This document shows, in pieces, positions 6,435-34,316 of a DNA stretch of 34,344 nt. The notes under the pieces are model-generated. The model was given only the letters and a program-made list of their open reading frames with translations. It did not search any database and had not been told where the DNA came from. Origin of the DNA: Clostridia bacterium (GTDB lineage Bacteria > Bacillota > Clostridia > Oscillospirales > CAG-272); NCBI GenBank assembly GCA_017397175.1, contig JAFQKA010000030.1, forward strand, positions 1-34,344. Reading direction: 5' to 3'. Every line of letters starts with the position of its first letter. Position 1 is the first letter of the stretch. The position numbers and the translations under genes were made by a program.

Positions 6435-6446
6435 TTTAACTCTCCT

Positions 6447-7160
6447 TTACAGACTGCGCATAAAGTTTTCTACGATCGTGGAAAGGCCTTCGTGCGCTTT
6501 AAGATTGGGGTGGCCGTTCTTATCCGAGACGGCAAATGCCCGATTTCTCAGCTCCCTTGCCTCGTCGCACAGCTCGGGACGGTATTTTACCGCGCGGGTG
6601 AGGGGGACGCTGAAGTCTTCCTCAAGATCGAGATAGGGAATTCCCCATTTTCTTGCCATTCTTCTGACGCAGTCGGGGTAAGCAGGACTTGCACAGAACG
6701 ATGGAATTATAATTCCGATCTTCGCATAGGGCATATTTGTTATAAGGTGACGGAGAACTACGTTCCACGCGCCGCAGAAAGTGGACACATCCTGATCGTT
6801 CACACCGCCCAATGGAGCTTTTCTGAAGCTGTCGTTTGCGCCGATGAAGATAGTTACGTAATCTGCGTCGAGGGGAACCTTTTTATAGAGTGTTGAAAGA
6901 GAGCGCTCATTTCCGTTTGGCCCGATCTCGGGCATATAGGTCATGGTGCCGCCGCACAGCGCCATGTTCAAAACCTCCATATTGTTGCGCTTTCCTATGT
7001 GCCAGGGATAAGTTTTGCACATTTTCAGCTCCGCATCGTACACGTTAGGGCTTTTGCGGTTTTCAAGTCCGTTTTCGTCAACGTACGAGCCGAAATCACC
7101 GTCTGTGAGGCTGTCGCCAAGAGCCACGTACTTTTTGCCGTATAAATAATTTGATTCCAT
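6447..7160 (-). CDS. SGNH/GDSL-family hydrolase, copy 2 of 3
   Basis: The 237-residue protein carries GDSLTDG (block I), GANDS (block III) and NGHPN (block V His). The long reading frame extends to 7196, but ATG at 7160 is preferred. It follows AAAGGAG, leaves a 10-nt gap after the upstream stop, and gives the N-terminus MESNYLYGKKYVALGDS, matching both paralogues. It is the closest of the two neighbours to copy 3, sharing long stretches such as KMCKTYPWHIGKRN. The residue three before the catalytic His is Lys instead of Asp. No secretion signal is visible. Confidence 0.85.
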   Translation of the reverse strand: MESNYLYGKKYVALGDSLTDGDFGSYVDENGLENRKSPNVYDAELKMCKTYPWHIGKRNNMEVLNMALCGGTMTYMPEIGPNGNERSLSTLYKKVPLDADYVTIFIGANDSFRKAPLGGVNDQDVSTFCGAWNVVLRHLITNMPYAKIGIIIPSFCASPAYPDCVRRMARKWGIPYLDLEEDFSVPLTRAVKYRPELCDEARELRNRAFAVSDKNGHPNLKAHEGLSTIVENFMRSL

Positions 7161-7170
7161 TTTCTCTCCT

Positions 7171-7887
7171 TTACAGACTGCGCATGAATTTCTCAATAGC
7201 GGTCGAAATATATTTGTAGGCTTCGATGTTGGGATGCCTGTTTTTCGGCGTTACGCTGAATTTTTCGGTGCGGAAGGCTCTTACCTCGTCGCACATCTCG
7301 GGACGTCCTCGGACGTTGTTTAATACGGGTGTCAGGTAATCGTCGTTCAGGTCAAGATAGGGAATACCCCACCGCCGCGCCATTTTCAGCGTCATATTGT
7401 GGTACGCGGGACTTGCCCCGCTGGTGGTGGCGATAATGCCTATTTTTGCATAGGGCAGATTTGTTATCAAGTAACGCAGCACCACGTTCCACGCGCCGCA
7501 AAAGGTGGTCAGCGTGTCATCGGTGACAGAACCCAATGGTGCCTTTTTGTGTGTGTCGTTAATTCCTATCCAGATAGTTATGTAATCTGCGTCAAGTGGC
7601 ACTTTTTTGTATATTGTCGACAGAGAATATGAGTCACCCGCGGGACCGACCTCGGGCATATAGGTCAACGTTCCTCCGCCGTGGGCCAGATTTACAAGCT
7701 CCATGCCGTTCCGCTTGGCTATCCACCACGGATAGGTCTTGATCATCTTCATTTCCTTGTCGTAAACATAGGGGTTTTCAACGTTTTCGATTCCCGATAT
7801 TTCATTGAAACCGTTAAAATCACCCGACGTGTAGCTGTCGCCAAGAGCGACGTATTTTTTTCCGTAGAGATAATTACTGTTTTCCAT
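7171..7887 (-). CDS. SGNH/GDSL-family hydrolase, copy 1 of 3 (operon-first)
   Basis: The 238-residue protein has GDSYTSG, GIND and NRHPN in the places expected of an SGNH hydrolase. ATG at 7887 is preferred over the longer frame to 7938. It gives MENSNYLYGKKYVALGDS, in line with the other copies, and has GAGG about 8 nt upstream. It is the most divergent of the three copies, for example FNGFNEISGIENVENP after block I. It is the first gene after the promoter at 7918-7946. It lacks a signal peptide and, like its paralogues, the canonical block V Asp. Confidence 0.85.
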   Translation of the reverse strand: MENSNYLYGKKYVALGDSYTSGDFNGFNEISGIENVENPYVYDKEMKMIKTYPWWIAKRNGMELVNLAHGGGTLTYMPEVGPAGDSYSLSTIYKKVPLDADYITIWIGINDTHKKAPLGSVTDDTLTTFCGAWNVVLRYLITNLPYAKIGIIATTSGASPAYHNMTLKMARRWGIPYLDLNDDYLTPVLNNVRGRPEMCDEVRAFRTEKFSVTPKNRHPNIEAYKYISTAIEKFMRSL

Positions 7888-7917
7888 TGTTTTCCTCGTT
7901 TTGTTGAATTTGTCTTT

Positions 7918-7946
7918 ATTATACACGCAAAGAGTCAAAAAGTAAA
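7918..7946 (-). promoter_or_regulatory. Probable promoter of the SGNH/lipoprotein operon
   Basis: On the minus strand TTTACT (7946-7941), 17 bp and TATAAT (7923-7918) lie about 30 nt before the first SGNH gene. The -10 is perfect and the -35 matches four of six bases. Confidence 0.65.
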
Positions 7947-21354: not shown

Positions 21355-21430
21355 GCGCTTGTAGCTCAGTGGATAGAGTGCCCGGCTACGAACCGGTAGG
21401 TCGCAGGTTCGAATCCTGCCAGGCGCGCCA
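21355..21430 (+). tRNA. tRNA-Arg (anticodon ACG) with encoded CCA
   Basis: The acceptor GCGCTTG pairs with CAGGCGC. The anticodon loop CTACGAA gives ACG, and the T-arm GCAGG/CCTGC encloses TTCGAAT. The 76-nt gene includes CCA and is followed directly by a strong terminator. The last 23 nt before CCA recur, with one inserted base, at 21565-21588. Confidence 0.95.
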
Positions 21431-21432
21431 AA

Positions 21433-21471
21433 TAAAAGAGGATAGGGTTTACCCTATCCTCTTTTATTTTT
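21433..21471 (+). terminator. Terminator of tRNA-Arg
   Basis: TAAAAGAGGATAGGGT and its exact complement form a 16 bp stem with a TT centre, followed by TTTTT. It starts 3 nt after the CCA. On the minus strand it is followed by TTTATTT, so it may also stop transcription arriving from the DUF2971 gene. Confidence 0.92.
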
Positions 21472-21482
21472 CACGCACTTCC

Positions 21483-21577
21483 GGATTCAGAACCTCTCAA
21501 CGCTCTGCGTTGAAGGGTTTGCGCTGTGAGGACGAACGCTTTGTGTGAACAATGGCGCAAACGAAGGTTCTGAATCC
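21483..21577 (-). repeat. Structured palindromic element, copy 1
   Basis: A perfect 13-bp outer inverted repeat (21483-21495 with 21565-21577) encloses an 8-bp stem GTTTGCGC/GCGCAAAC (21517-21524 with 21555-21562, 30-nt loop) and a small hairpin CAACGC-TCT-GCGTTG (21498-21512). Read on the minus strand the order is outer stem, 2-nt linker, long-loop stem, short linker, small hairpin, TGAGAG, outer stem. The same plan appears at 34211-34316. It could be a small RNA fold or a mobile DNA unit. It encodes no protein that I can support. Confidence 0.7.
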
Positions 21578-21594
21578 TGCCAGGCGCGGAGATT

Positions 21595-22395
21595 TCACAA
21601 ATGGAACTCGCGACTTATCAAAAAACTTCCTGTATTAGACAAATGCATTTCACGCAATTCAGCACCTGTATTTTTGAAACGATCTTGGATTATTGCAAGC
21701 TCATCTTGATAGTGTTGCTTTGGAAAACACATACCTAAATATACGGCTGAAATACAGTTAGACAAATCTTCATAGTCTGTGCCATCTCTTATCTTTATCA
21801 TTCGCCATTCTTTTTCGTAATCCCATTCAGCATCCTTGTGAATCAAATTAAATATTGGAAGGCGATGGGTGGAAAAAACAGCATTTTCCAATTGCTCTCT
21901 TGAAAAGTAAGCCATCTTATAAAGATTTTTACTCTGTGCTGATGTTAATTTCGTTAAATCATATTCAATAACATAGCCTGTATGATTTGATGCGTAATGC
22001 GCCCACATTGTCATCAAATCCAATTTCTCGGAAAAACAAGCGATGCAAAAACAGTCCTTAAACTTATCTTGGTGAGATTTCAATACATCGGTAAAATCTC
22101 TTATTTCACCGTCTGCGTTCATAACTTGAAAATCGTAGGAGGGCAAAGTGCCTTTTGAATTTAGCAATCCAAGATAAAGCGAATTTGCATATCCGTACAT
22201 ATTACCGTCAAAAGGATCATTAAATTTTGCGGGGGAACTCATATATACTTTGCCTTTGATGATATTACTATACCAATGCGAATCAAAAAACCTATAACGA
22301 TATATTTTTTTATTTGGAGGATATATTTGAGTTTTTAGTTCCAGCAAAGAGACCATATCCCCCGTTAAAATCGCATTATTATACTTCGTTAACAT
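21595..22395 (-). CDS. DUF2971 domain protein, possible defence accessory
   Basis: A 266-residue protein with the layout of the DUF2971 family. It has KIYRYRFFDS near residue 30, the SSPAKFNDPFDG segment, CIACFSEKLDLMTMWAHYASNHTG-type central motifs and EWDYEKEWRMIK. The biochemical role is unknown; members are often found in phage-defence neighbourhoods. It is soluble, with no signal peptide. It is AT-richer than the housekeeping genes nearby. It lies 17 nt downstream of the MmeI-like restriction gene on the same strand, so the two are probably one transcript. Confidence 0.8.
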   Translation of the reverse strand: MLTKYNNAILTGDMVSLLELKTQIYPPNKKIYRYRFFDSHWYSNIIKGKVYMSSPAKFNDPFDGNMYGYANSLYLGLLNSKGTLPSYDFQVMNADGEIRDFTDVLKSHQDKFKDCFCIACFSEKLDLMTMWAHYASNHTGYVIEYDLTKLTSAQSKNLYKMAYFSREQLENAVFSTHRLPIFNLIHKDAEWDYEKEWRMIKIRDGTDYEDLSNCISAVYLGMCFPKQHYQDELAIIQDRFKNTGAELREMHLSNTGSFLISREFHL

Positions 22396-22412
22396 TATAA
22401 AATCCCTCTGTA

Positions 22413-25187
22413 TTAACCATTAACCAGCTTTTGATACATCTTCATAAGCTCTGCAACACAGCTACTCTCCGTCATGGTCTTCACATCGAATCCATATGCT
22501 TGCATTACGGCGCGGTCGTTTGCTTGGTGAGCCTTGCGAAGCTCGGGCGGCATAGCAACCTCGTCGTAGAGATCAGCCAGAGAACAATCGGGATAAAGCG
22601 CACGAGCGTCAAGAATAGCCTGCGCGGTTTCCTTAATCTTCTTTTTCTGCTCGTCAGTAGGGTTAGGCCATGGGAAGTTGTTATAAACTACATCTTTGGA
22701 ATATCTATAGTCACTCTTGATTCTTCCGCAGACCGCACGTGTCCATGCCATATGAACATTTGATGTGAGAACGCCGAAGTGATATGCGGTCGCGTCGGGA
22801 ATAAATAAAACTGCGTTCGTTACCACAACAGAATCATCAATAAATCCCATAGGAATGTATTTACGATTTTCGCTTGAATGACACGGAATCACAACGGCAG
22901 ACAGTGGATTATTTGTTTCACGGAAGGTGGCTGGCGTCAATGCAAGTTTTCGTGCTCCTTCATCTGTGCTGTTTTCTCGCATTTCCTTTACTTTTCTAAC
23001 ACGCTCAAGTACTAAAGGCATTCGCTTTATTTCTGCTGGTGAAATGCCTGAGAGCCATAAACACCACCGTGCATTGTTGTTAATAAACTCTTTTGCTCCA
23101 ATCAATCGTTTGATATATTGTGCGGCATTTGGTTCTCTTGCGATAAAAGCATCGTAATCTTCTTTTTCGATAATTAGATTGCCCCCATCGACAGGTTTGT
23201 TACCGTATGTCATTTTGGGAATAGCACATACTGCTGTTGTTCTGCTTTCAATAAACACTGTTGGTGCTTCAATCAGGTAAAAATTGATATTCTCAACAAG
23301 CTGCACTCTTTCTGCCGAATATAGCTGTTTCGGTTGTGAGTTGATTGCCGTACTAAACCCAACGATTACACAATGCACGTGCGCTTTGATGCTCGCTTCA
23401 CTATCCCAACGGAATGTTCTATGTGCAAAATCAATATGAATATTAAAACGTTCATAAAGCGGCTTCCAAACACCCGCAACCTGTTCCCCCTGTGTTATAG
23501 AGTTTGTGGAAACAAACGCTGTGCGAATATTTGTATTTTGCATCAATTCCGCCGCTTTGAAATACCAGCCTGAAACATAGTCTATCTTTCCTGCTGTTTT
23601 ATATGGTTTTCCTTTTTCATCGACGTAAATCGAAAGAATGTCCTGCTTCTGTTCGGGGGTCTGCAAGGAATACCCCACAAACGGCGGATTACCCATAATG
23701 TAGTTCAGCTTATCCTTTGGAACAACGCTCTCCCAATCGGTGCGGAGTGCGTTGCCTTCAACAATATTGGCATAGGATTTCAGCGGCAGAAAATCGAGGC
23801 TTGTGTGCAGGATCTCCTCGGTCTCGCGCATCATCTGGGATTCTGCGATCCAGAGCGCGGTTTTTGCTACGGTTACGGCAAAGTCGTTGATCTCAATGCC
23901 GTAAAATTGCCCGATGGATACCTTTATAACGTCGCCCAGGTCAAGTGCGATCTGATCTTCATATATAATTTTCAGTGCTTCGTTTTCAAGACGACGCAAG
24001 GAAATATAGGTTTCGGTCAGGAAGTTGCCCGAGCCGCAGGCAGGGTCGAAAAACGTAAGCGAAGACAGCTTTTCGCGGAAGGCTTGTGCCTTGTCCTTTT
24101 GCGTTTTCTGAATCTTCATCAGCTTTATTTCCGCTAATTCTTCTCTCAGCTCGTCAAGGAACAGTGGGTCTGTTACCTTGTGGATATTTTCAATTGAGGT
24201 GTAGTGCATACCGCCCGAGCGTCTGGTCTCGGGGTTCAGAGTGGATTCAAATACCGCGCCGAAGATGGTGGGGCTGATCTGCGACCAGTCAAAATCCTCG
24301 CTGGCATTGTGCAAAAGAAGGTCGATTATCTCTTGTGTGAAATTCGGTATTTCGATGTTTTCATCTGCAAAAAGCCCACCGTTTACGTATGGAAATGCCG
24401 CCAAGGTGTCGTCCATATAAGGGTCGCGATTCTCGGTCTTTGTGTCGAGCACGCGGAAAAGGTCAATAAGTGCGCGGCGAACGTCACGGACGTTGAAGCT
24501 CTTTATATAATTATGGAACTTCAGATGTCCTCCGAAAATGCCCGCGTCCTCTGCATAAAGGCAGAACACAAGGCGCACGCAAAGCATATTCAGAGAGCGC
24601 AGGGTGTCCTCGCTGTCGGGAGAAATATACTGCTTTAAAACAGCGTCGTACAGTTTGCCCACAAGCTCTCCCGCTTTAATGGAGATCTGCTCCTCTCGGT
24701 GCAACAGCTCGCTTTTTTCTTCAACGAGAAATTGCAAGCGATAATATTCTTTGCTAAGGTCGCAAAGCAAAATGCTTTCCGGCTCGCCAGTGGGATTTTC
24801 CATGTCATATATCAGAAATTCCTCAAAATTGCAGGTAATGATCCATCGGGGACGCTGTGAATAGGGAAGTGCCGCTGAATATCTCTGCGCCTGCTGAAAG
24901 GGGTTCAGCAGAGTGCCGTCTGATTGACGGATAGGACTGCGCAGATTGAGCCCCTTCTTTTTTTGCTCGATCAGAACGTGGGTTGAGGGGATATGGCCGT
25001 CAATAAAGCTGGTATGGTCAAGCTTTACGCGCTCCTCGAATAAAATGACTTTCTCCGGCTCCGCAACACCTAAAACATCGCGAATAAGCGATAGCCAAAA
25101 GGACTGGCTGTCGCTTTTTTCGTCTCCTCGGTCTTTCCAATATTCTGCAAAGGCTTTTGCGGCTCTTTTTTTGTCGTTTTCGGTCAT
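22413..25187 (-). CDS. MmeI-like single-chain restriction endonuclease-methyltransferase (Type IIL/IIG)
   Basis: A 924-residue fused restriction-modification enzyme. Residues 63-76 contain the nuclease motif D-x10-ExK (FIDGHIPSTHVLIEQKKKG; Asp63, Glu74, Lys76). A helical connector follows. The N6-adenine methyltransferase core has DPACGSGNF (about 381-389) for SAM and NPPFVGY (about 498) for the target base. The remaining C-terminal region holds the target recognition domain and closing helices. In this family one protein cuts at a distance from its site and methylates one strand for self-protection. ATG at 25187 is chosen over the longer frame to 25403: GGAGG is upstream, it follows the promoter, and the extension lacks similarity. 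Sequence specificity cannot be read by eye. Confidence 0.9.
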   Translation of the reverse strand: MTENDKKRAAKAFAEYWKDRGDEKSDSQSFWLSLIRDVLGVAEPEKVILFEERVKLDHTSFIDGHIPSTHVLIEQKKKGLNLRSPIRQSDGTLLNPFQQAQRYSAALPYSQRPRWIITCNFEEFLIYDMENPTGEPESILLCDLSKEYYRLQFLVEEKSELLHREEQISIKAGELVGKLYDAVLKQYISPDSEDTLRSLNMLCVRLVFCLYAEDAGIFGGHLKFHNYIKSFNVRDVRRALIDLFRVLDTKTENRDPYMDDTLAAFPYVNGGLFADENIEIPNFTQEIIDLLLHNASEDFDWSQISPTIFGAVFESTLNPETRRSGGMHYTSIENIHKVTDPLFLDELREELAEIKLMKIQKTQKDKAQAFREKLSSLTFFDPACGSGNFLTETYISLRRLENEALKIIYEDQIALDLGDVIKVSIGQFYGIEINDFAVTVAKTALWIAESQMMRETEEILHTSLDFLPLKSYANIVEGNALRTDWESVVPKDKLNYIMGNPPFVGYSLQTPEQKQDILSIYVDEKGKPYKTAGKIDYVSGWYFKAAELMQNTNIRTAFVSTNSITQGEQVAGVWKPLYERFNIHIDFAHRTFRWDSEASIKAHVHCVIVGFSTAINSQPKQLYSAERVQLVENINFYLIEAPTVFIESRTTAVCAIPKMTYGNKPVDGGNLIIEKEDYDAFIAREPNAAQYIKRLIGAKEFINNNARWCLWLSGISPAEIKRMPLVLERVRKVKEMRENSTDEGARKLALTPATFRETNNPLSAVVIPCHSSENRKYIPMGFIDDSVVVTNAVLFIPDATAYHFGVLTSNVHMAWTRAVCGRIKSDYRYSKDVVYNNFPWPNPTDEQKKKIKETAQAILDARALYPDCSLADLYDEVAMPPELRKAHQANDRAVMQAYGFDVKTMTESSCVAELMKMYQKLVNG

Positions 25188-25218
25188 GGTGGTCTTTCCC
25201 TCCGTGAGCTTTTTTTCT

Positions 25219-25247
25219 ATTATACACCATATTCGGGGATTATTCAA
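25219..25247 (-). promoter_or_regulatory. Promoter of the restriction-modification/DUF2971 unit
   Basis: On the minus strand TTGAAT (25247-25242), 17 bp and TATAAT (25224-25219), about 30 nt before the start of the MmeI-like gene. This position also argues against the longer upstream frame. Confidence 0.75.
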
Positions 25248-25420
25248 TGAAGATTGGCAAGATTTTACACATAATTTTGTTTTTTGCCTTTTTCTCGCAT
25301 ATGTGTTGCGTCCTTTCTCTTTTTGTGATAAAATTTTGTTGATAATTCCGCGGAAACTGTAATATCTGCATTCGCAAAGGTTACATACCAAGTGAACGAC
25401 CAAAAAAGGAGGTTGACAAA

Positions 25421-25966
25421 ATGCTACTGAATGACACCGAAATCATCGAGCTGTTCTGGGAACGGTCGGAGCAGGCAATAAAGGCACTTGCCGATAAATA
25501 TGACCGTCTGGCACGAAGTGTTGCCATGAACATTCTCCGGGACAGACTTGATACCGAGGAATGTGTCAACGACAGCTATCTTGGTATGTGGAACAGCCTG
25601 CCGCCAAAGCGACCGCAGGTCCTGCCCGCGTTCTTTGCAACGATCACCAGAAATCTGGCACTTAACCGCTACCGTCACAACATGGCTCAAAAGCGTTACG
25701 CCATAATGGAAGAGCTGACCGATCTGACCTCGTCCGTACCATCTCCCGAGGAGGAGATAAATTACGCGGGGCAGATAATCTCGGCATTCCTCGAAAAGCA
25801 GGATAAGCAAGCCCGCGTGCTTTTTATGCGCCGCTATTTTATGGGTGAGTCGATCCGCGACGCGGCAAGCTTTGTGGGCATGACCGAGAACGCTGCCACG
25901 GTCAAGCTTTGTCGCATGAGAGCAAAGCTGAAGGAAGTTCTTTTGAAGGAGGGGATCGAGGTATGA
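25421..25966 (+). CDS. ECF-type sigma-70 family sigma factor
   Basis: A 181-residue sigma factor with only regions 2 and 4. Region 2 includes DRLDTEECVNDSYLGMWNSL and AFFATITRNLALNRYR (about 10-90). Region 4 is the helix-turn-helix RDAASFVGMTENAATVKLCRMRAKL (about 145-172). A perfect AAGGAGG lies 8 nt before the ATG. Its stop overlaps the start of the next gene (ATGA), the usual arrangement of an ECF factor with its membrane anti-sigma partner. I see no confident promoter in the 230 bp upstream. Confidence 0.92.
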   Translation: MLLNDTEIIELFWERSEQAIKALADKYDRLARSVAMNILRDRLDTEECVNDSYLGMWNSLPPKRPQVLPAFFATITRNLALNRYRHNMAQKRYAIMEELTDLTSSVPSPEEEINYAGQIISAFLEKQDKQARVLFMRRYFMGESIRDAASFVGMTENAATVKLCRMRAKLKEVLLKEGIEV

Positions 25967-28494
25967 GAGAAGTGGATTTTCTTGAAGCTGTAGGAAAAGT
26001 CGACGAGAAATTCGTCAATGAGTGTGTTAATTACGTTCGTCCAAAGAAAATGAACGTGTGGATCCGTCGCGTAGGAGCTGTTGCCGCTTGCTTTGCGGTG
26101 GTGATCGCTGCCGTTTTGATTTTAAACCGCGCAAAGCAGCCCAAGATCATTGACGAAAACGGCTTTTATATCGAAAACGGTGTTCTTCTTCGGTACACGG
26201 GCGCAGAGACGGATATTACTCTGCCTGAAACGGTGGAGGAGATCGCTGATTTTGCTTTCCTTGAAAATAAGAACGCAAAGGGAATTGAGGTGGTGCGACT
26301 TGGCGCGTCCGTCAAGGTCGTGGAGGCTAACGCTTTTGCGGGACTGGAAAAGCTCTCAAGTGTTGAAGTTTCCGAGAAAAATAACGCCTTTGTTGATCGA
26401 GACGGGCTTATTATGTCTGCCGATGGCACGGTTTTGCTTCGATATGGACGCGAGGGCGAGACGCGCTTTGTCATGCCCGATACGGTAAAGATCGTAGCCG
26501 CCCACGCGGTGCAGGTGCCTGTTCTTGAAGAAATAGAGTTCAGCGACAGCCTTGAATATATCGGATACAACGCTTTTGCGGGCTGCTATGAGCTGAAATC
26601 GATCTATCTGCCCGACACGGTGCAATACATCGGCGACGGCGCGTTTGCGGGCTGCGGCTCTGCCGTTGACGGACACGTTCCCGAAGGCGCAGAAATCGGT
26701 CAGTGGGCGTTTGACGGCGTTCCTTTCTATCTTTCTATGCTTGCAGGACAGATGTGTCCCGCGGAGGAGATAGAGCGAGGATTGGTGACCCCGTCCGAGG
26801 CGATCCAAAAGAGCAATCAAGATGCTCTCACACAGCAGATAGAGTATATTCTTGCCGCCATGCGCGGAGATGAAAGCTATAAGGAAACCGAGCTTGGAAA
26901 GCTGGCGTACGGCGCTGTGTTCGAGATGCCCGAGGTGCCGCAGAATTTGGATATCCCCGCGAATTTCTCTCTTTCCGATTTGACATTTACCGATCAGGGC
27001 TGGGGAAGAACCGGAATAAACGATCTGCAGATCTTCCTTGAGGCGGGGGAATACACCATTGCCTTTGAGGCATACGGCTACGCTCTTTACTACGAACTTT
27101 ATTGGAAAGACGCCGTCTTCCAAATTTCAAGAGTGTATTTTATACAGAATATTGAAGATGTTGACCCCGGTTACACAGCCACGGGCTTTGGCTGGACGGC
27201 GGTGTTTGAGCGTGGGGACGGAATTTACAATGGTATCACTTTTGTGCACGAGGACGGTCGCATTATCCGCAGTGCCCCGGGCATTCCCAGTAAAATTCCA
27301 TATCAATTGACCTTCTCGCCCGACGGCAGCCGGGTGGCGGTTGAATACAATATGAACGGTGAGCCTACGTTCTATATACAAGCTCTTGATGGAATCCCCT
27401 TGAGTGAACCAAACTACGATTACAGCTTGTATTTGCACTCCCGTGTAGGCAGATACGTGGCGAACACGCTCATTTGGTATGACAACGAGACTGTTGAGGG
27501 TGTAAACGAATACGGAAGATTCCGTTTCAACATTTTCGGCTACCTGCCGGAGATAATCGAGCCCAAGGAGGAAGACGAGGACTGGATGCTTGATGGCTAC
27601 GTTCACTTGACAGTGCCGCCGTCTCGGAGTGCTGACGTGGGCGGTCTTCCGTTCGACGAGAGCAAGGCGAAGATCGGGTTTACTCTCGTTGGCGGTTCAC
27701 CTGCAATCTACGTACCCGGCGGCAAGGATCTGACCTTTTACGTCGTTTATAAGGGCAACCCCCACACCTATTACGAAAGCATTCTGAGCTTGCCGAACGG
27801 CTATGAGAACGGCGAGATAATCTACGCCTCGGGCGGCGGTGGAAGCGGTGAATATTTTATGTTTGTTTCCGCTGAATTGCAGGGCATAAAGGTGCTGCTT
27901 GCGTATTATTTCTATTCGGGCGGCGTACCTCAGCCCGATGAGGTAATAATAATGGAGGGCGAGTGGAAGACGTCAATCGAGGAGAAAGCCTACGGTCTGC
28001 CCGACGGCTCCGATCCGGCGGCGCTGACGGGTATCCTTTCAATGACCGTTTCCGAGATCGAGCGTCTTTACGGCAAACTGACCCTTGAATATTCCGAGCA
28101 TGGCCCCGGTCAGCCTGTTTATTCTATGGCGCATCTGTCTGGCGTGGAGGTTGTTTTCCACGGACACGATATGAACGAGCCTTTGAAGGCTGATATGAAG
28201 CCTGCGGAAATTATTCTGACTGAGGAGTATGGCAGAAAGTTTTACGGCCTGTCGGTGGGAGATTACGTTGAAGCGACCGAAATATCTTGGAATAGCGCGG
28301 AATATTCCCCTATGAGCGGCTTGGTCACGCTGACTGCGGATCTTGATACCTATCGCATCTCCTGCGCGGTGGCGACAAGGTGGGAAAATATTCCCGACGA
28401 TAGCGCACCGCAGTCCGAATGGGACGCATGGGAAGCAAAGTTCCTCGGAGACCCAAGAGGCGAGATCCGACAGCTTCGCGTAGAAAAGAAATAA
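25963..28494 (+). CDS. Membrane protein with LRR ectodomain, likely anti-sigma factor
   Basis: 843 residues: a short cytoplasmic N-terminus (1-35, MREVDFLEAVGKVDEKFVNE), one transmembrane helix (about 38-55) and a large outside part. Residues about 63-250 are BspA-type LRR_5 repeats (LEYIGYNAFAGCYELKSIYL, VQYIGDGAFAGCG). The remaining 590 residues are beta-rich and unfamiliar to me. ATG at 25963 overlaps the sigma factor stop and has GGAGG upstream; the longer frame from 25909 lies inside the sigma gene. By position the N-terminus should bind and restrain the ECF sigma factor, with the LRR region sensing something outside. No zinc-type anti-sigma motif is visible, so this is inference. Confidence 0.75.
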   Translation: MREVDFLEAVGKVDEKFVNECVNYVRPKKMNVWIRRVGAVAACFAVVIAAVLILNRAKQPKIIDENGFYIENGVLLRYTGAETDITLPETVEEIADFAFLENKNAKGIEVVRLGASVKVVEANAFAGLEKLSSVEVSEKNNAFVDRDGLIMSADGTVLLRYGREGETRFVMPDTVKIVAAHAVQVPVLEEIEFSDSLEYIGYNAFAGCYELKSIYLPDTVQYIGDGAFAGCGSAVDGHVPEGAEIGQWAFDGVPFYLSMLAGQMCPAEEIERGLVTPSEAIQKSNQDALTQQIEYILAAMRGDESYKETELGKLAYGAVFEMPEVPQNLDIPANFSLSDLTFTDQGWGRTGINDLQIFLEAGEYTIAFEAYGYALYYELYWKDAVFQISRVYFIQNIEDVDPGYTATGFGWTAVFERGDGIYNGITFVHEDGRIIRSAPGIPSKIPYQLTFSPDGSRVAVEYNMNGEPTFYIQALDGIPLSEPNYDYSLYLHSRVGRYVANTLIWYDNETVEGVNEYGRFRFNIFGYLPEIIEPKEEDEDWMLDGYVHLTVPPSRSADVGGLPFDESKAKIGFTLVGGSPAIYVPGGKDLTFYVVYKGNPHTYYESILSLPNGYENGEIIYASGGGGSGEYFMFVSAELQGIKVLLAYYFYSGGVPQPDEVIIMEGEWKTSIEEKAYGLPDGSDPAALTGILSMTVSEIERLYGKLTLEYSEHGPGQPVYSMAHLSGVEVVFHGHDMNEPLKADMKPAEIILTEEYGRKFYGLSVGDYVEATEISWNSAEYSPMSGLVTLTADLDTYRISCAVATRWENIPDDSAPQSEWDAWEAKFLGDPRGEIRQLRVEKK

Positions 28495-28500
28495 AATGAA

Positions 28501-28526
28501 AAAATCCCCCGAAAGGGGGATTTTTT
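28501..28526 (+). terminator. Terminator of the sigma/anti-sigma operon
   Basis: AAAATCCCCC and GGGGGATTTT pair around GAAA, followed by TT. It begins 6 nt past the stop codon. Confidence 0.9.
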
Positions 28527-28542
28527 CTGACGTTTTGATTGT

Positions 28543-28689
28543 GGGCGGGGGCCGCGGGATCGTAGGGGGAGGATATTATCCTCCCGAAAACCGACAGATA
28601 AAAAAGCGGGAGGCTGATAGCCTCCCCTACCAATATTGATTTTGAAAAACACGGCGGGGCTTAATTTGCGTGACAAACCGCCCCCGCCC
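28543..28689. repeat. Nested palindromic intergenic element
   Basis: The outer arms GGGCGGGGGC (28543-28552) and GCCCCCGCCC (28680-28689) are exact complements. Between them are two similar hairpins in opposite orientation: 28562-28586 (GTAGGGGGAGG...CCTCCCG) and 28607-28630 (CGGGAGG...CCTCCCCTAC). The 147-bp unit has no coding potential that I can support. It has the look of a small non-autonomous mobile or REP-like repeat. Confidence 0.65.
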
Positions 28690-28714
28690 TATAAGGTTAA
28701 CCTTTCCGATTTTC

Positions 28715-28743
28715 TTGACATATCTCCTCTTCCGTGCTATAAT
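28715..28743 (+). promoter_or_regulatory. Sigma-A promoter of the thiN/GH39 operon
   Basis: TTGACA (28715-28720), 17 bp and TATAAT (28738-28743), a perfect consensus about 33 nt before the start codon. I see no TPP riboswitch in this short leader. Confidence 0.9.
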
Positions 28744-28776
28744 TCTATGTAACAAAACAAGAAACGGAGCTATCTG

Positions 28777-29439
28777 ATGGCACGCAAGGTTATAAATAAC
28801 ATGAACGCTGAAAGAAAGCGCGGATTTATTTACACGGGCGGTGAGGTCTACACGGAAAACATCACCGACAAGCCCGAAAAGGACGATTTTTGCATTGCGG
28901 CGGACAGCGGCTACAAAACTGCGCGGGCACTGGGGGTGAAGATAGACGTTGTTATCGGGGATTTTGACTCTCTCGGATCTGTCAGCATTCCCGACGGCAT
29001 CGAGCGCATCGAGCTGCCTTGTGAAAAGGACTGTACCGATACCCAGGCGGCGGTGCAGGTGGCGCTGGAGCGAGGCTGTACCGAGATATACATAATTGGC
29101 GGAATCGGCACGAGGGTCGATCACGTTATGTCAAACGTGGGGATCCTTGAAGGTCTTTACGAGGGCGGTGTTCACGCAAATATCAGCAACGGAAAGAACC
29201 GAATCAGATATCTGAGAAACGACAACGTGCTCATCGGACGCAGTGCGTATAAATACCTGTCGGTAATTGCGCTTGATCCCGTCTGCCGCGGCGTTTCGGT
29301 GGAGGGGTGCAAATATAAGATGAAAGATCAAAAGCTCGAGCGAAAGGTACAGTTTGCGGTGAGCAATGAGATCGAAGGAAATCTGGCGCTTGTTACCGTG
29401 AAAAAAGGCGCGGCGCTTGTAATAGAGTCTATTGATTGA
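28777..29439 (+). CDS. thiN: Thiamine diphosphokinase
   Basis: The 220-residue enzyme makes thiamine diphosphate from thiamine and ATP. Family motifs are clear: AADSGYKTARALGVKIDVVIGDFDS (split ADSG and GDFDSLG), EKDCTDTQAA and GGIGTRVDHVMSN. Length is normal. ACGGAG lies upstream of the ATG. The gene is first in a two-gene unit: the GH39 start lies 10 nt after its stop. In many Firmicutes thiN sits beside ribosome-maturation genes such as rsgA and rpe; here it does not. Confidence 0.93.
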   Translation: MARKVINNMNAERKRGFIYTGGEVYTENITDKPEKDDFCIAADSGYKTARALGVKIDVVIGDFDSLGSVSIPDGIERIELPCEKDCTDTQAAVQVALERGCTEIYIIGGIGTRVDHVMSNVGILEGLYEGGVHANISNGKNRIRYLRNDNVLIGRSAYKYLSVIALDPVCRGVSVEGCKYKMKDQKLERKVQFAVSNEIEGNLALVTVKKGAALVIESID

Positions 29440-29449
29440 GGAGAAATAC

Positions 29450-30985
29450 ATGATTAAATTGGAAAACACAATTGAACAAAAGATTGATCTGCCCTGCCTT
29501 AAAATGGTGGCACAGGGACGTGCCTATGAGCTGCTCCGCGCAGAAGTACAGGCGCAAATAAAGCAGGCACACGATGACATAGGATTCAAATATTGCCGTT
29601 TCCACGGACTTTTCCACGATGATATGGACGTGGTCTACCGTCGTGAGGACGGTTCTTTCGGCTATCATTGGCACCACATAGACAAGGTGTTTGACTTCCT
29701 GATCTCCATTGGTATGAAGCCATTTGTAGAGCTGAACCCAATGCCGTCTCTGCTTGCAAGCGGCACTCAGACCATGTTCTGGTACAAGATGAACGTGACC
29801 CCGCCAAAAAGCTACGACGATTGGTACGACCTGATCTACAGCTTCACCGAGCACGTGACCGAGCGTTACGGCGAGGACGAGATAAAGCAGTGGTATTTTG
29901 AGGTATGGAACGAGCCAAACTTAAAATGCTTCTGGTCGGCAGATCAGGCTGAATATTTCAAGCTGTACAAGACCTCGGTGACAGCGGTCAGAGCCGTCTG
30001 CGACGAATACAAGGTTGGCGGTCCCGCCACGGCGACTTGCTCGTGGGTGACCGATATTATCGACTACTGCACAGACAATAACCTGCCTCTTGATTTCGTT
30101 TCCACTCACCTTTACCCTCAGGACGAGTATTGCATCTACAAGACGAGAGAAAATTCTCCCTACGAGCAGGTTGGTGACTATTTTATAGAGGAAGTGAAGA
30201 AGGTAAAGGAAAAGGTGGCGGCGTCAAAGCGTCCTGACCTGCCCATTTACTGGACAGAGTTCAACACCCTTTCAAGCGACAGCGCAAAGCACATCACCTT
30301 CCTGAACAACACCGCACTCGACCGGCTTTACGGTGCCTCCTGCGTGTGCCGTTGTCTCCTTGAGACGATGGATTACAGCGACGGTGTGGCTTATTGGACG
30401 GTCAGCGACGTGTTTGAGGAGAGTCAAATGCGCCATACGCCTTTCTCCGGCACCTACGGTCTCATGACCCTGCAGGGCATAAAGAAAGCGACCTATAATG
30501 CTTTCGAGCTGATGAAAAGGCTTAGAGGAAAGAGATTTTCTCTTGACGTTTCTACCCCTCTCGGCTGCGGCATCGTTGCAACCGAGGAAAAGGGCACCAT
30601 CAGAATTCTAATGTACAACTGCAAGCTCCCCGAGATAAAGGATCAGCCAGGTTGGCGCGAGACGCTTTACATACCCGGTATTGATGCCTCCGAATATATT
30701 TTTGAGCAGGCGAAGATCGAAAAGGGCAGGGGAAGCGCTTACGAGGAATGGGTAAAGATGGGCAAGCCCGCTAATCTGACGCCCTTTGAGGAATCCTATC
30801 TGCGCTCTTGCGCCGAAATGCACTATTCGCTTATCGAAGTTGAGGGCACACGGGCCGAGTTTGAGGTCTGCCTCAAGCCCGATGAGGTCTGCTATGTAGA
30901 GATCCACCGAAGATCCCGCGACGTTGCCATCTGGGCGAGCAACGAGGAGCTGGAGGATCAGCTGAACGTGGCGAATCACAGGTGA
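29450..30985 (+). CDS. Glycoside hydrolase family 39 enzyme (beta-xylosidase-like)
   Basis: A 511-residue clan GH-A enzyme. The (beta/alpha)8 barrel occupies about 1-370, with acid/base Glu155 in YFEVWNEPN and nucleophile Glu270 in YWTEFN, both in the places expected of GH39 beta-xylosidases. A beta-rich accessory region follows (about 370-511). No signal peptide, so it probably acts in the cytoplasm on imported xylo-oligosaccharides; alpha-iduronidase-type or other activity in the family cannot be excluded. ATG at 29450 is chosen over 29432 because GAGGAGA lies 6 nt upstream, 10 nt past the thiN stop. Confidence 0.9.
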   Translation: MIKLENTIEQKIDLPCLKMVAQGRAYELLRAEVQAQIKQAHDDIGFKYCRFHGLFHDDMDVVYRREDGSFGYHWHHIDKVFDFLISIGMKPFVELNPMPSLLASGTQTMFWYKMNVTPPKSYDDWYDLIYSFTEHVTERYGEDEIKQWYFEVWNEPNLKCFWSADQAEYFKLYKTSVTAVRAVCDEYKVGGPATATCSWVTDIIDYCTDNNLPLDFVSTHLYPQDEYCIYKTRENSPYEQVGDYFIEEVKKVKEKVAASKRPDLPIYWTEFNTLSSDSAKHITFLNNTALDRLYGASCVCRCLLETMDYSDGVAYWTVSDVFEESQMRHTPFSGTYGLMTLQGIKKATYNAFELMKRLRGKRFSLDVSTPLGCGIVATEEKGTIRILMYNCKLPEIKDQPGWRETLYIPGIDASEYIFEQAKIEKGRGSAYEEWVKMGKPANLTPFEESYLRSCAEMHYSLIEVEGTRAEFEVCLKPDEVCYVEIHRRSRDVAIWASNEELEDQLNVANHR

Positions 30986-30995
30986 GAATAAGAGA

Positions 30996-31023
30996 AAAAG
31001 CACGGCGTGAGCCGTGCTTTTTT
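30996..31023 (+). terminator. Terminator of the thiN/GH39 operon
   Basis: AAAAGCACGGC and GCCGTGCTTTT form an 11 bp stem with loop GTGA, followed by more Ts. Confidence 0.9.
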
Positions 31024-31074
31024 GATTGAAGTTGCCTTTTCACCAACAAATACAAGCATACACGGGCTTTTATA

Positions 31075-31103
31075 TTGACTTTTGCCAAATTTTATGATAT
31101 AAT
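31075..31103 (+). promoter_or_regulatory. Sigma-A promoter of the metalloprotease/lipoprotein operon
   Basis: TTGACT (31075-31080), 17 bp and TATAAT (31098-31103). The start site expected near 31110 leaves a leader of about 90 nt that contains a small reading frame at 31139. Confidence 0.85.
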
Positions 31104-31138
31104 ACAGACACAAACAGAAAAGAAAGGAAGTGATAGCG

Positions 31139-31327
31139 ATGCAGACAGAAATCGAAAATTTCAGTAAGGACGTTTTGTTTTCGACATTGAAAGGAGTCAA
31201 CTATGTTAAAGAAATATCGTGTAATATCAATAATGATATGCGTTTCAATGATCTTTTGTCTGATCGTATCAACGAGTGCATTAGGGGCAACCCAAGTATT
31301 TTCAGGAAAGATCGTCTGCGGAGATAA
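31139..31327 (+). CDS. Small upstream reading frame, uncertain
   Basis: A 62-codon frame begins MQTEIENFSKDVLFSTLKGV, with AAAGGAAG about 10 nt upstream. It runs in another frame through the first 125 nt of the metalloprotease gene, which has its own strong AAAGGAG. It could be a short protein or a leader whose translation affects the next gene, or it could be chance. I recognise no family. Confidence 0.25.
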   Translation: MQTEIENFSKDVLFSTLKGVNYVKEISCNINNDMRFNDLLSDRINECIRGNPSIFRKDRLRR

Positions 31328-33176
31328 TATCGATCTGTCTGATATAGAGGTGGAAATTTATTCGTCAGCACCTAAATACGACGAGGACGGAAATTTCCTA
31401 TATTATGTAGAAACTTACGAAAGATCGGTATATGCCGATGCTGACGGAGATTTTGAATTTGTCAAGCCTTCGCTCTATTGCTCATACACTATAAACGTAG
31501 AGACCCTTCCCGCAAATTATGGCGTATCCAAGCATACGCAGTTTATCATTCCCACACGAACAAACGACAGCGTTACGATAGCGGCTATTTCAACCGCAGA
31601 GGCTGATTACAGCGGCGGCAGCTTTTACGCGATTTTCAAGGCTGCCGACGGAACGGAAATCTATACCGACCACGATATAATTGAGGATGGCGAAAGCTCT
31701 GTTTTTGTGGCTGGTGAAAATCTCAGCGCCACGAAGCAGATAATAAGTGCCGAAAATATCGAAGATGTAAACAGATATACACTCAGCGGAACTATTGTCA
31801 CAAACGGCAAAAATTACAGATATTCCAAGAGCTTTGATATTTCAGATTACAGCGAAACAGAAAAAGCGGATCTGCTCTGCTCACTTGGCAAAATATCGGA
31901 AGAAGAAAAATATGATATCTATTCGCAGTATGGAGAAGAGTTTTATTCGCAAGTAACACCTTGTGACGAGTTGGAAACCAACGGCGAAAGCAGAGCAGCA
32001 ACCGCTTACCAAGATCCAGACTATGATAGAACTCTCAGTGTAACTTTGGGAAGCAATACAGTGGAAGTAAAATATACTGCAAGCTCTTTTACAAATTATC
32101 CGGGAAAACTCGGCTTGTTTGAGGATACTTTAGAGGATGTATATAATTACTTCTGCGTTTCCAATGGCTTTTTGGCACCGGTAGCCCCCACCGGAAACTT
32201 TTGCATATATATAACAAGCGATTGCTCCGAGGATGGCAGAACATACCCAGCCAATACCGGACCAGGCTCAACGATTTGGATAAAGGAATCGCTTGTACAA
32301 AATGGGAATGCCAAACAAGCATTGGCGCATGAGTTCATGCATGGAATAATGTATAGATATCTAATAAGGAATGCAGGGAATTGGTTCAAGGAATCGTTTG
32401 CAACTATGGCATCAATGGTTTATTTAAGAAAAACTGATGCTGTGAATTTTATCCAAGAAGCAAATTTTCACTATTTCAAAGAATGTCTTGAGGATTATGT
32501 TGAAAATTACTACCGCTCCTTAACATCACCAGCAGACGATGACTTGTATCCTTTGTTTTCCTACGGAACATTGGTATTTGCTTTATGCCTCTATAATGAT
32601 GAATATGATCCTAATTTAACAGAAAATGATCGGTGGGAGACAATAAGAACGCTGTTTGAAAACTATGATAACACCTCCCCCGAATTTGATTCGATTCACG
32701 GGACTAGAGATGGCACAACATTCAACTTTGAATCCATTTTTGACGAAATGTCGGCGGCAATTTTGTTCCCAACGAGTGGCAATCTTGGATTTGAAATTGC
32801 ACAAATGCAAGGAATTAGCAGTTATTGGCCAACCGTTAGCTGTTTCGCTCAAAGAATTCCTTCGGAACAAGTGAAATTGAATATAAATCCTCTTGCCAAC
32901 AGATATTTTAGCTATTCACCATCAACAAACATGGGCACTGTTTATTTGACTGCCAGCTCGACGGGAGATTGTCTTTTTAACGTATATAACAATCTAACTT
33001 CATCAATCATCGGAAAACTTGCATGGGATGATGTTCGTGTCACATTGCCTATCGAAAACTTTGGTGCAACAGGAGCAAACAAGAAAATCATTATGTCAAC
33101 AACCAATTTCTCCATTTCAACCACACGTTCCCTTTCAATTTCAATCAGCACCAGCAGACCGGAGGATTGGCCGTGA
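31203..33176 (+). CDS. Secreted zinc metalloprotease of the gluzincin type
   Basis: A 657-residue exported protein: signal peptide about 1-29 (ending ALGA), beta-rich N-terminal domains to about 270, then a protease domain. HEFMH at 376-380 with Glu397 in NWFKESFATMAS gives the HExxH...E zinc site of gluzincins; which MEROPS family is unclear. A beta-rich C-terminal region ends in SISISTSRPEDWP. AAAGGAG lies 6 nt before the ATG. The stop overlaps the GTG start of the next lipoprotein gene. It is AT-richer than most of the window, which may point to recent acquisition. Likely role: breakdown of outside proteins; substrate unknown. Confidence 0.82.
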   Translation: MLKKYRVISIMICVSMIFCLIVSTSALGATQVFSGKIVCGDNIDLSDIEVEIYSSAPKYDEDGNFLYYVETYERSVYADADGDFEFVKPSLYCSYTINVETLPANYGVSKHTQFIIPTRTNDSVTIAAISTAEADYSGGSFYAIFKAADGTEIYTDHDIIEDGESSVFVAGENLSATKQIISAENIEDVNRYTLSGTIVTNGKNYRYSKSFDISDYSETEKADLLCSLGKISEEEKYDIYSQYGEEFYSQVTPCDELETNGESRAATAYQDPDYDRTLSVTLGSNTVEVKYTASSFTNYPGKLGLFEDTLEDVYNYFCVSNGFLAPVAPTGNFCIYITSDCSEDGRTYPANTGPGSTIWIKESLVQNGNAKQALAHEFMHGIMYRYLIRNAGNWFKESFATMASMVYLRKTDAVNFIQEANFHYFKECLEDYVENYYRSLTSPADDDLYPLFSYGTLVFALCLYNDEYDPNLTENDRWETIRTLFENYDNTSPEFDSIHGTRDGTTFNFESIFDEMSAAILFPTSGNLGFEIAQMQGISSYWPTVSCFAQRIPSEQVKLNINPLANRYFSYSPSTNMGTVYLTASSTGDCLFNVYNNLTSSIIGKLAWDDVRVTLPIENFGATGANKKIIMSTTNFSISTTRSLSISISTSRPEDWP

Positions 33177-34123
33177 AGATCAAAAACTTAATTATAATCA
33201 CTTTCGTTCTGGTTTTTCTGTTTGCATTAACTTCCTGCAATAGCGAAAAACCACCCGTCGATGATTTGACGGACACAAATACCAACGTTACAGCGGATTC
33301 CGATAGGGAAACGGTTACAGATACAGAACAAGACCTATATCTTGATAATTCGACAGGAATCCCTGCACCCGTTGTTCCACCGATGAAAGAGTATGCTGCT
33401 TTTCGAAACTTTTCTTTTGTCGTTGCGGAATTTGGGGAACCAATACTTCCCGCTAACTTGTCAGATGGAACAAACCCTCTTTTGTTTGAGGCGTTTAAAT
33501 CACCGGACATCGCAAAGCAGTGTTTTGCATATCCAATAAAGATACTTAGAAAATTTGAAGCAACGGCATATAGCAAGGACGAAGATTGTAAAAGTTTCTT
33601 TCCTGCCATGCTTCAAGAGTGGGAAGCCCAGGGAGATTACCGTCCCCAGTCATTGTTTAATTACGCGGTTGACTATCGCAATAAGGACGAGATAATGGCA
33701 GAATATGATGATATCATTTTGATCGATGCCGATACAAATGTGGCAATAGGAGAACAGTATTGTCTATCTGTTTATTATATGCCCCTCAAATCTCCCGATG
33801 ATCTTTCTGAGGAGTTTCGGTTTCCTTTGACACCCATGTATGATCTTGTCACAATGAAGCCGATCTTAATACCCGTGAAAGATGATAAAATTTGCTTGCC
33901 GGAAGAATATTACCAGAAGAAGTCTTATCCCAAAGAAAAAGAATACGTGTATATGTTAGCGGTGCTCGCGGAAGATGTAAACGAAAAGCTGACACGGTTA
34001 GGATTAACGGACAATCTTTTCCGCGACGGAATGACGATAGACGAGCTTGACGAATATTTCACTCTCGTCACGAACAAGGAGACCTTCGCTCCGCTTTTTG
34101 AGAACGTGGAGACAGGTGAGTAG
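33173..34123 (+). CDS. Lipoprotein of unknown function, coupled to the metalloprotease
   Basis: A 316-residue lipoprotein with lipobox ALTSC (Cys22) and a Thr/Asp-rich linker (about 27-60). The remainder is a mixed alpha/beta region I cannot assign, with motifs such as IDADTNVAIGEQYCLSVYY. GTG at 33173 is the likely start, because GGAGG at 33161-33165 is 7 nt upstream; the TTG at 33167 is too close to it. GTGA overlaps the protease stop, so the two are translationally coupled. It may hold the protease at the membrane or act as its inhibitor or partner; neither is shown by sequence. Confidence 0.7.
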   Translation: MKIKNLIIITFVLVFLFALTSCNSEKPPVDDLTDTNTNVTADSDRETVTDTEQDLYLDNSTGIPAPVVPPMKEYAAFRNFSFVVAEFGEPILPANLSDGTNPLLFEAFKSPDIAKQCFAYPIKILRKFEATAYSKDEDCKSFFPAMLQEWEAQGDYRPQSLFNYAVDYRNKDEIMAEYDDIILIDADTNVAIGEQYCLSVYYMPLKSPDDLSEEFRFPLTPMYDLVTMKPILIPVKDDKICLPEEYYQKKSYPKEKEYVYMLAVLAEDVNEKLTRLGLTDNLFRDGMTIDELDEYFTLVTNKETFAPLFENVETGE

Positions 34124-34134
34124 TAAAAAACAAG

Positions 34135-34163
34135 GCGGTGGGGCTACGCTCCACCGCTGTTTT
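34135..34163 (+). terminator. Probable terminator of the metalloprotease/lipoprotein operon
   Basis: GCGGTGGGG and CTCCACCGC pair (one G-T) around CTACG, followed by TGTTTT. It begins 11 nt past the stop. The tail is weak. Confidence 0.6.
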
Positions 34164-34210
34164 GTGTGCATCAATTTTTGTGGTGACGTCGTTCGGGGGG
34201 CGACGAAAGA

Positions 34211-34316
34211 GATTCTGAACTCAGTTTTGCGCTTATGTTAGCGGTAATTTTCAGTTAGGCTAAGCCTCGCGCAAAATCATCATTTTTGCGGAGCAAAAAT
34301 GAGAGAGTTCAGCATC
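34211..34316 (+). repeat. Structured palindromic element, copy 2
   Basis: The outer stem GATTCTGAACTC (34211-34222) pairs with GAGTTCAGCATC (34305-34316) at 11 of 12 positions. After a 2-nt linker, TTTTGCGC (34225-34232) pairs with GCGCAAAA (34269-34276) across a 36-nt loop. A hairpin TCATTTTTGC-GGA-GCAAAAATGA (34280-34302) and AGAG-type linker follow. The order matches copy 1 at 21483-21577. It begins about 50 nt after the preceding terminator, and no gene follows before the window ends. Confidence 0.7.

Follow-up and report, generated by a model that had tools for sequence, protein, structure and literature searches.

The window analyzed here, a stretch of 34,344 nucleotides from the Clostridia bacterium assembly GCA_017397175.1 (Oscillospirales, CAG-272; contig JAFQKA010000030.1, positions 1 to 34,344), contains two copies of a folded DNA element, of which copy 1 lies 54 bp behind a tRNA-Arg(acg) gene and antisense to it, and copy 2 is located at the end of the contig (Table 1). 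An earlier note on this DNA had placed both copies and given them a shared folding plan, which is borne out by the sequence and by RNA folding z-scores of -3.67 for copy 1 (minus strand) and -5.16 for copy 2 (plus strand), a stability that none of 200 shuffles reached, except that the outer stem of copy 2 is broken into 3 bp, one mismatch, and 8 bp, which corrects the earlier description. The words that it had listed as common to both copies (GATTCxGAAC, TTTGCGC, and GCGCAAA) are real, and it had not spotted their association with tRNA genes. The two copies belong to a family of DNA units of ~150 bases in uncultured gut Clostridia, and we are confident that these units insert into tRNA and transfer-messenger RNA (tmRNA) genes and rebuild the 3′ end of the gene.

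The T-arm core of copy 2 has exact matches at two places in its own genome, both of them tRNA-Ser genes, and its tail is better fitted (over 11 nt) by tRNA-Ser(gga), whose CCA ends contig C43. This is suggestive of tRNA-Ser(gga) as the likely partner of copy 2, though such a fit is not proof of a contig join. The middle pair of the outer stem does change between the copies, from A-T to T-A, as the earlier note had reported among its compensatory changes, and the change fits each stem matching the T-arm of its own tRNA, which for copy 2 would be the likely partner just named.

Table 1. Positions of the two copies, their parts, and adjoining features in the window
Feature	Position	Strand	Basis
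tRNA-Arg(acg), target with regenerated 3′ end	21355..21430	+	ARAGORN; Rfam RF00005
Terminator-like hairpin, bidirectional, separating tRNA-Arg(acg) from copy 1	21434..21465		Sequence
Copy 1, folded body (outer and inner boxes, stem 1, hairpin 2)	21483..21577	-	Sequence, folding, model R1
Copy 1, hairpin 2, TCAACGC / GCGTTGA	21497..21513		Sequence, folding
Copy 1, stem 1, one arm, GTTTGCGC	21517..21524		Sequence, folding
Copy 1, stem 1, second arm, GCGCAAAC	21555..21562		Sequence, folding
Copy 1, T-arm-like core GGATTC[A]GAACCT, extra base at 21571; tRNA counterpart GGATTCGAACCT	21565..21577	-	
Displaced copy of the tRNA-Arg 3′ end, GAATCCTGCCAGGCGCG	21572..21588	+	
Copy 2, displaced tail remnant GAAAGAGATTC, 11 nt, equal to the 3′ end of the tRNA-Ser(gga) that ends contig C43	34205..34215	+	
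Copy 2, folded body; extra base T at 34216 in GATTC[T]GAACTC	34211..34316	+	
Beginning of an A-rich stretch that elsewhere leads to a terminator and tRNA; contig end	34323..34344		Comparison with other copies

Distribution of the units and their position behind tRNA genes

A DNA search and a pattern search reveal additional copies in the same genome, and a covariance model, R1, was built from 14 own-genome copies, its stored structure including a doubtful two-pair element at the 5′ end. With R1 the own genome has at least 16 copies at E ≤ 0.001, both window copies included, a lower bound in that the search scored at most 16 candidates per genome. At least one R1 match was found in 54 of 246 sampled genomes of the family, own genome counted, and in an order-wide sample R1 matches occur in 9 of 394 genomes, five from the same family and four from three other families; two of these four (G434 and G428) have the match behind a tRNA and two (G419 and G390) have no tRNA in the retrieved stretch. 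A degenerate pattern matched 88 stretches in named genomes, and the 80 listed are all titled as Clostridia or Oscillospiraceae metagenome-assembled genomes, with the animals named in those titles being herbivores, for example roe deer, sheep, goat, cattle, yak, and horse. The model probably does not cover the whole family, since the three tandem 152-bp units of locus L239 (G000:C51, about 31930-32250), which by eye have the core GAGATTT-GAACTC without an extra base and the stem GCGTTGC/GCAACGC, were missed by the seed hidden Markov model.

In all, 163 distinct copies were collected, 97 of them model-found and 66 pattern-found, after exclusion of copies below 20 bits or 55 model positions, overlapping opposite-strand matches, and identical flanked copies. 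Seed and model include the T-arm-like core, so that the finding of a core is partly built in, while the position relative to tRNA genes and the match to the own tRNA are not. An antisense tRNA or tmRNA gene lies within 900 bp downstream of 121 of the 163 copies (74 of the 97 model-found and 47 of the 66 pattern-found), in 71 cases at 48 to 66 bp, and the targets include the tRNAs for Arg, His, Thr, Gly, Val, Met, Glu, Gln, Pro, Leu, Lys, Ser, Trp, and Ala as well as tmRNA. Terminator-like hairpins flank many bodies. At locus L091 (G056:C128) two near-identical bodies lie 7.4 kb apart, each with a similar upstream stretch of ~100 bp, with sugar-metabolism-like genes between them (by eye) and no tRNA in the retrieved part.

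The T-loop junction and displaced tRNA tails

Read antisense, a typical copy runs from the 3′ end of its own tRNA through one extra base into GAACCN, the junction being placed between TTC and GA of the T-loop, and the cores of many copies have the form GAACCN/NGGTTC, then an optional base, and then GA. The insert at this junction is one base in 64 of 72 model-found copies, two bases in 5, none in 2, and three in 1, and it is a single T or A in 63 of the 72; the count is given for these copies only because the pattern applied to genome contigs requires exactly one base between GGTTC and GA. One of the two insert-less rows (L061:1761) is a truncated copy with a misplaced core and the other (L068) is real.

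Agreement with the own tRNA was scored over 119 junctions, which are the 121 copies with a tRNA minus one without a core candidate and one identical copy. Position -3 equals the own tRNA in 115 of 119 (0.28 expected from other tRNAs), positions -7 to -12 do so in 84 to 110 (control 0.26-0.45), and positions -13 to -15 in 60 to 63 of 117-118 (control about 0.26), with positions -2 and -5 near-invariant across tRNAs and of little information. To the right of the junction the sixth base equals the own tRNA in 101 of 119 copies (0.445) and the seventh in 30 of 119 (0.26), from where agreement stays at chance level. The entire tRNA 3′ end is repeated in 25 of the 119 copies. Around 163 tRNA genes, all from loci selected for the element, displaced tails with one inserted base number 127 downstream in sense, 10 downstream in antisense, 1 upstream in sense, and 0 upstream in antisense, and those without an inserted base, such as intact neighboring tRNAs, number 16, 7, 13, and 0 in the same four classes.

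An empty and a filled site at ssrA

The hallmark of an island in a tRNA gene (tDNA island), a regenerated tRNA together with a displaced fragment, is present, and within one genus the ssrA gene is found both empty (G160) and with two units in its T-loop (G002). The insert in G002 is 348 bp long, with cores 173 and 174 bp apart, and in an alignment of 112 bp the sequence that directly follows ssrA in G160 agrees at 91% with that past the far displaced tail in G002. The ssrA tail is GACTC in G160, G070, and G117, none of which has a unit there, and the far tail in G002 is also GACTC, while the gene-proximal tail is GATTC both in G002 and in G200, the latter retaining an apparent remnant of a unit (by eye). 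The GATTC near tails and the GACTC far tail of G002, together with the flank alignment, indicate that the original tail and terminator were pushed aside by those that arrived with the unit. A mobile unit whose ends matter, one of the two possibilities raised in the earlier note, is thus supported by this pair of sites in one genus and by the constant insertion point.

At tRNA-Arg(acg) in the genus of the window a unit is present in G000 and G056 and there is none in G152 and G192. The G056 locus (L190) has a body that looks flipped or of another type, between tails that repeat ~61 bp with one difference (by eye).

Covarying stems of the body

The body is built of an inner box (GAACCN/NGGTTC), a stem 1 that closes a loop of ~30 nt and is frequently formed by TTTGCGC/GCGCAAA, and a hairpin 2 that varies; beyond the inner box comes a short spacer that contains the extra base, and many copies have further GAY/RTC pairing there. 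From 126 aligned matches, 96 distinct anchored rows were retained; in the majority of these the inner box, stem 1, and hairpin 2 are paired, and pairing holds in 95.9% of the stem cells. Double-sided changes number 303, whereas 200 shuffles, which ignore relatedness, average 78.5 and reach no more than 99; the alignment that supplied the columns of stem 1 and hairpin 2 was fitted by the model, and in it the inner box was placed by consensus and not by pairing. All four Watson-Crick types occur at all five scored positions of hairpin 2, and the inner box is complementary at no fewer than 5 of 6 positions in 107 of 119 copies, its 3′ arm having been picked for complementarity. The inner box tends to match the T-stem of the own tRNA, and the stems covary. 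The selection on a fold proposed in the earlier note, on the basis of two copies, is supported by this strong covariation, and neither outcome that the note had named as a refutation, a lack of further copies or stem changes that destroy pairing, was observed.

Only tRNA and tmRNA pass the gathering score in Rfam, and at a relaxed E-value the bodies have weak sub-threshold matches only. The other suggestion of the earlier note, a free non-coding RNA, is not supported, since the bodies match no Rfam family and what defines them belongs to the level of DNA, namely a place behind tRNA genes, tails of tRNAs that have been displaced, and a junction in the T-loop. A pattern scan of IMG/VR gave 0 matches and phages and plasmids gave none, a narrow search with one pattern and one 116-bp query, and no description of such elements was recognized in the part of the open-access literature that was covered.

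Arrays, cargo, and candidate enzymes

Displaced tails within 8 kb of 97 tRNA genes in the collected loci delimit 140 intervals, with arrays of one unit in 60 cases, two in 33, three in 3, and five in 1, where neighboring tRNAs of a cluster may each be credited with a single array. The majority of intervals could not accommodate genes, 129 of the 140 being at most 330 bp long and mostly near 130-175 bp. Eight intervals exceed 800 bp, and in five of them (L075, L132, L134, L145, and L177) sense-oriented genes lie ahead of the hairpin, with cargo that includes a 23S rRNA IVP-family protein, a YcxB-like protein, and a zinc-ribbon protein. The remaining long intervals may not be cassettes, L158 having an irregular core, L150 antisense genes, and L086 a mixed 7.6-kb stretch. 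Some tandem units are near-identical, as in the G115 array. In L036:8767-9007 (C2:13766-14006) and L032:8480-8734 (C40) adjacent tandem units are near-identical on the outside and have quite different 30-nt loops, and in the C2 pair stem 1 is also altered yet still pairs. A CRISPR-like nature of the variable 30-nt loops was among the readings considered.

No integrase was found among the open reading frames of the 11 intervals above 330 bp (seven proteins by Pfam, five of these as their first 160 residues, and the rest by eye). Among the 25 widest clusters of genes near arrays, in a search for helper or cargo genes, there is no tyrosine-integrase-like family; broad families recur in 2 to 5 genomes, with ABC ATPases, sigma factors, regulators, lipoproteins, SmpB by ssrA, and KsgA by tRNA-Thr among the recurrent neighbors (by eye). 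Eight carrier genomes were searched with PF00589, which gave one match each in G031, G107, G115, and G146 and two to four in the other four. The single recombinase of G031, G107, and G115 is 331-370 amino acids long and Xer-like (by eye in G031 and G115, scored in G107), these genomes being 76-94% complete so that further recombinases may have been missed, and that of G146 differs by eye. The G107 protein scores 87.9 with the integron integrase model TIGR02249, whose cut-off is 265, and falls below the NCBIfam cut-offs for XerC, XerA, and XerD. In the own genome there are three matches to tyrosine recombinases, of which one directly follows tRNA-Pro and another tRNA-Leu. In two genomes (loci L101 and L102) an open reading frame of one family, serine-recombinase-like by eye, lies within 5 kb of an element.

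Other genes of the window include, just past the displaced tail of copy 1 (21595-25403, minus strand), a restriction-modification enzyme of the MmeI type (PF20473 and related families) together with a protein of the DUF2971 family, and, at 5721-7938 (minus strand), three neighboring similar open reading frames of about 240-255 amino acids that are SGNH-like by eye.

Discussion

On balance, and by a modest measure, we favor the reading that each copy is the recombination site of a mini-cassette that has entered a tRNA or tmRNA gene at the T-loop, lacks an integrase of its own, and is recombined in trans. The cassette would insert between TTC and GA of the T-loop and supply a new 3′ end and terminator, with the old 3′ end and flank pushed beyond, as observed at ssrA. 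That a trans-acting site-specific recombinase moves the units is probable, and by elimination an Xer-like protein would be the candidate enzyme. A tyrosine recombinase acting in trans may bind two kinds of site, an attI-like one in the duplex T-arm and an attC-like one in the folded hairpin with its outer box, spacer with extra T or A, inner box, and branched top, and the reaction could be catalyzed by the Xer-like recombinase of the genome itself or by a recombinase that a passing element brings. Whether recombination proceeds through a folded single strand is close to an even call, and we lean slightly against it. Units occur in tandem, from 1 to 5, most of them gene-less and some with a sense gene before the hairpin. 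It is a tentative further step, and one that we consider possible rather than likely, to see here a second integron-like system, platform-free, integrase-less, and genome-wide, in which the T-arm of essentially any tRNA or tmRNA gene would serve as the duplex site, T-arm-mimicking single-strand hairpins as the cassette sites, and an Xer-like protein as the enzyme.

The R boxes of attC sites are RYYYAAC/GTTRRRY, and integrons have been viewed as a single system that relies on one integrase and a single attI platform. The folded attC has an R box, an L box, an unpaired central spacer, an extrahelical base, and a variable terminal structure (PMC2727003), and the short boxes, the spacer, the extra base in one arm, and the variable branched top of the units resemble these features, a likeness that we treat as resemblance. 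Like integron cassettes, the units are tandem and some are gene-less, and five of the eight intervals above 800 bp have sense-oriented genes before the site; unlike integron cassettes, they target T-arms of many tRNA and tmRNA genes rather than one attI, each carries a tRNA tail and terminator, and no integron integrase is over the cut-off in the sampled genomes of the family. In CTXphi-type integration host XerC/XerD recombine a single strand folded into a hairpin that imitates the duplex site of the chromosome. The units may by analogy be recombined by an Xer enzyme through a hairpin that mimics their duplex target; CTXphi targets dif and is a phage genome, and the units target tRNA. REP/REPIN and other palindromic repeats are likewise short, non-coding, folded, and multi-copy; they are not known to have a fixed tRNA target or displaced tails. 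In tDNA islands the split tRNA or tmRNA gene is regenerated by the insert and a displaced fragment is left at the far end (PMC4383910), and the units do likewise, differing in their size of ~150 bp, the lack of a visible integrase gene, the extra base, the conserved fold, and the many tRNA species used by one family. The signature itself is known from tDNA islands; new are how small the units are, that they come without an integrase, that they share an attC-like fold and carry an additional base, and that so many genes are targets.

That signature (PMC4383910) also speaks for ordinary duplex integration, in which the units would be mini tDNA islands mobilized in trans by normal tyrosine integrases of resident integrative and conjugative elements or prophages that cut the T-loop, the hairpin being only an arm-site or terminator-like structure. 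Also in favor of it, both tRNA and tmRNA are targeted, and the own genome has the tyrosine recombinase matches mentioned above, two of them just behind tRNAs. Island integrases usually keep to one site, whereas one body family serves many tRNA species, and G031, G107, and G115 each have a single, Xer-like PF00589 match in genomes of the completeness given above. The tight covariation of the whole body and the extra base at the junction would also be left unaccounted for, and we regard duplex integration as rather unlikely, though a serious contender.

A transcribed structured RNA tied to tRNA genes, as an antisense or trailer RNA acting on tRNA maturation or supply, would explain the strong covariation with variable loops, the constant distance and orientation to tRNA genes, and the terminator-like hairpins around many bodies; it is improbable in view of the gain of units at ssrA within one genus, the displaced tails, which require DNA recombination, and the absence of an Rfam match. 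Near-identical tandem units in the G115 array, and near and far tails that are near-identical over ~61 bp in G056 (by eye), could be taken for the passive outcome of unequal crossing-over that duplicates tRNA tails around a neighboring hairpin that stays in place. The T-loop junction, nearly always with an extra base, the unrelated near and far terminators in L043 and L044 (by eye), and the ssrA empty site, which shows gain of whole units, make this very improbable. A displaced tail also resembles a primer-binding site, being complementary to the tRNA 3′ end and in the 25 copies noted above complete, as expected of a retroelement that uses tRNA-primed reverse transcription, an explanation that we rejected as scarcely credible with the reverse transcriptase family RVT_1 in 1 of 13 carrier genomes.

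Several observations count against the mini-cassette reading or parts of it. The named integron integrase family was rejected, with 0 of 246 genomes over the TIGR02249 cut-off and weak matches in 244, which any tyrosine recombinase would give. No recombining enzyme was identified, serine recombinases not having been searched for, and no single-stranded or circular intermediate was seen. The core of the units is GTTC/GAAC and the attC core GTTRRRY is not present, and the extra base is unpartnered in 23 of 119 copies, paired in 16, in an internal loop in 18, and unclassified in 62, so that an extrahelical base is not universal. The complementary strands of copies 1 and 2 fold about equally well, and the strand is thus not decided by the fold alone. 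For 42 of the 163 copies no antisense tRNA lies within 900 bp; many of these, though not every one, sit where a contig or locus ends, and at least two are truncated duplicates of copies already in the count. The reading frame of the core was picked to fit the own tRNA, which favors own matches in the junction counts. The flanks of tRNA-Arg(acg) in the own genome and its congeners do not align outside the tRNA, so that locus offers presence and absence only and not a proven empty site. Finally, mean identity between bodies is 52% for different tRNAs in the same genome, 44% for the same tRNA in different genomes, and 42% where both differ, and the nearest neighbor of a body is in the same genome in 21 of 98 cases (3.3 expected), at the same tRNA in another genome in 10 (against 4.2 expected), and neither in 67; for this comparison 31 of the 163 copies with partial or repeated interiors were dropped, leaving 132, of which 98 have a tRNA, and one genome may carry two labels, these having been derived from handles and accession prefixes. 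The mini-cassette reading does not account for how one body family suits so many tRNAs, the two options being tRNA-specific site lineages that are homogenized within genomes or arms that are remade on insertion.

Islander requires an integrase (PMC4383910) and would therefore miss such units. The family accounts for a class of tRNA-flanking repeats in gut Clostridia that integrase-based island finders would not detect. The mini-cassette reading gives direct predictions, namely precise excision, a preference for single strands, and the behavior of covarying stem mutants. If the further step to a second integron-like system is right, every tRNA gene would be a cassette platform. A family that apparently uses many tRNA and tmRNA platforms with folded sites and without a dedicated integrase would bear on the origin of integrons from Xer-like enzymes and on how small gene-less DNA can spread.
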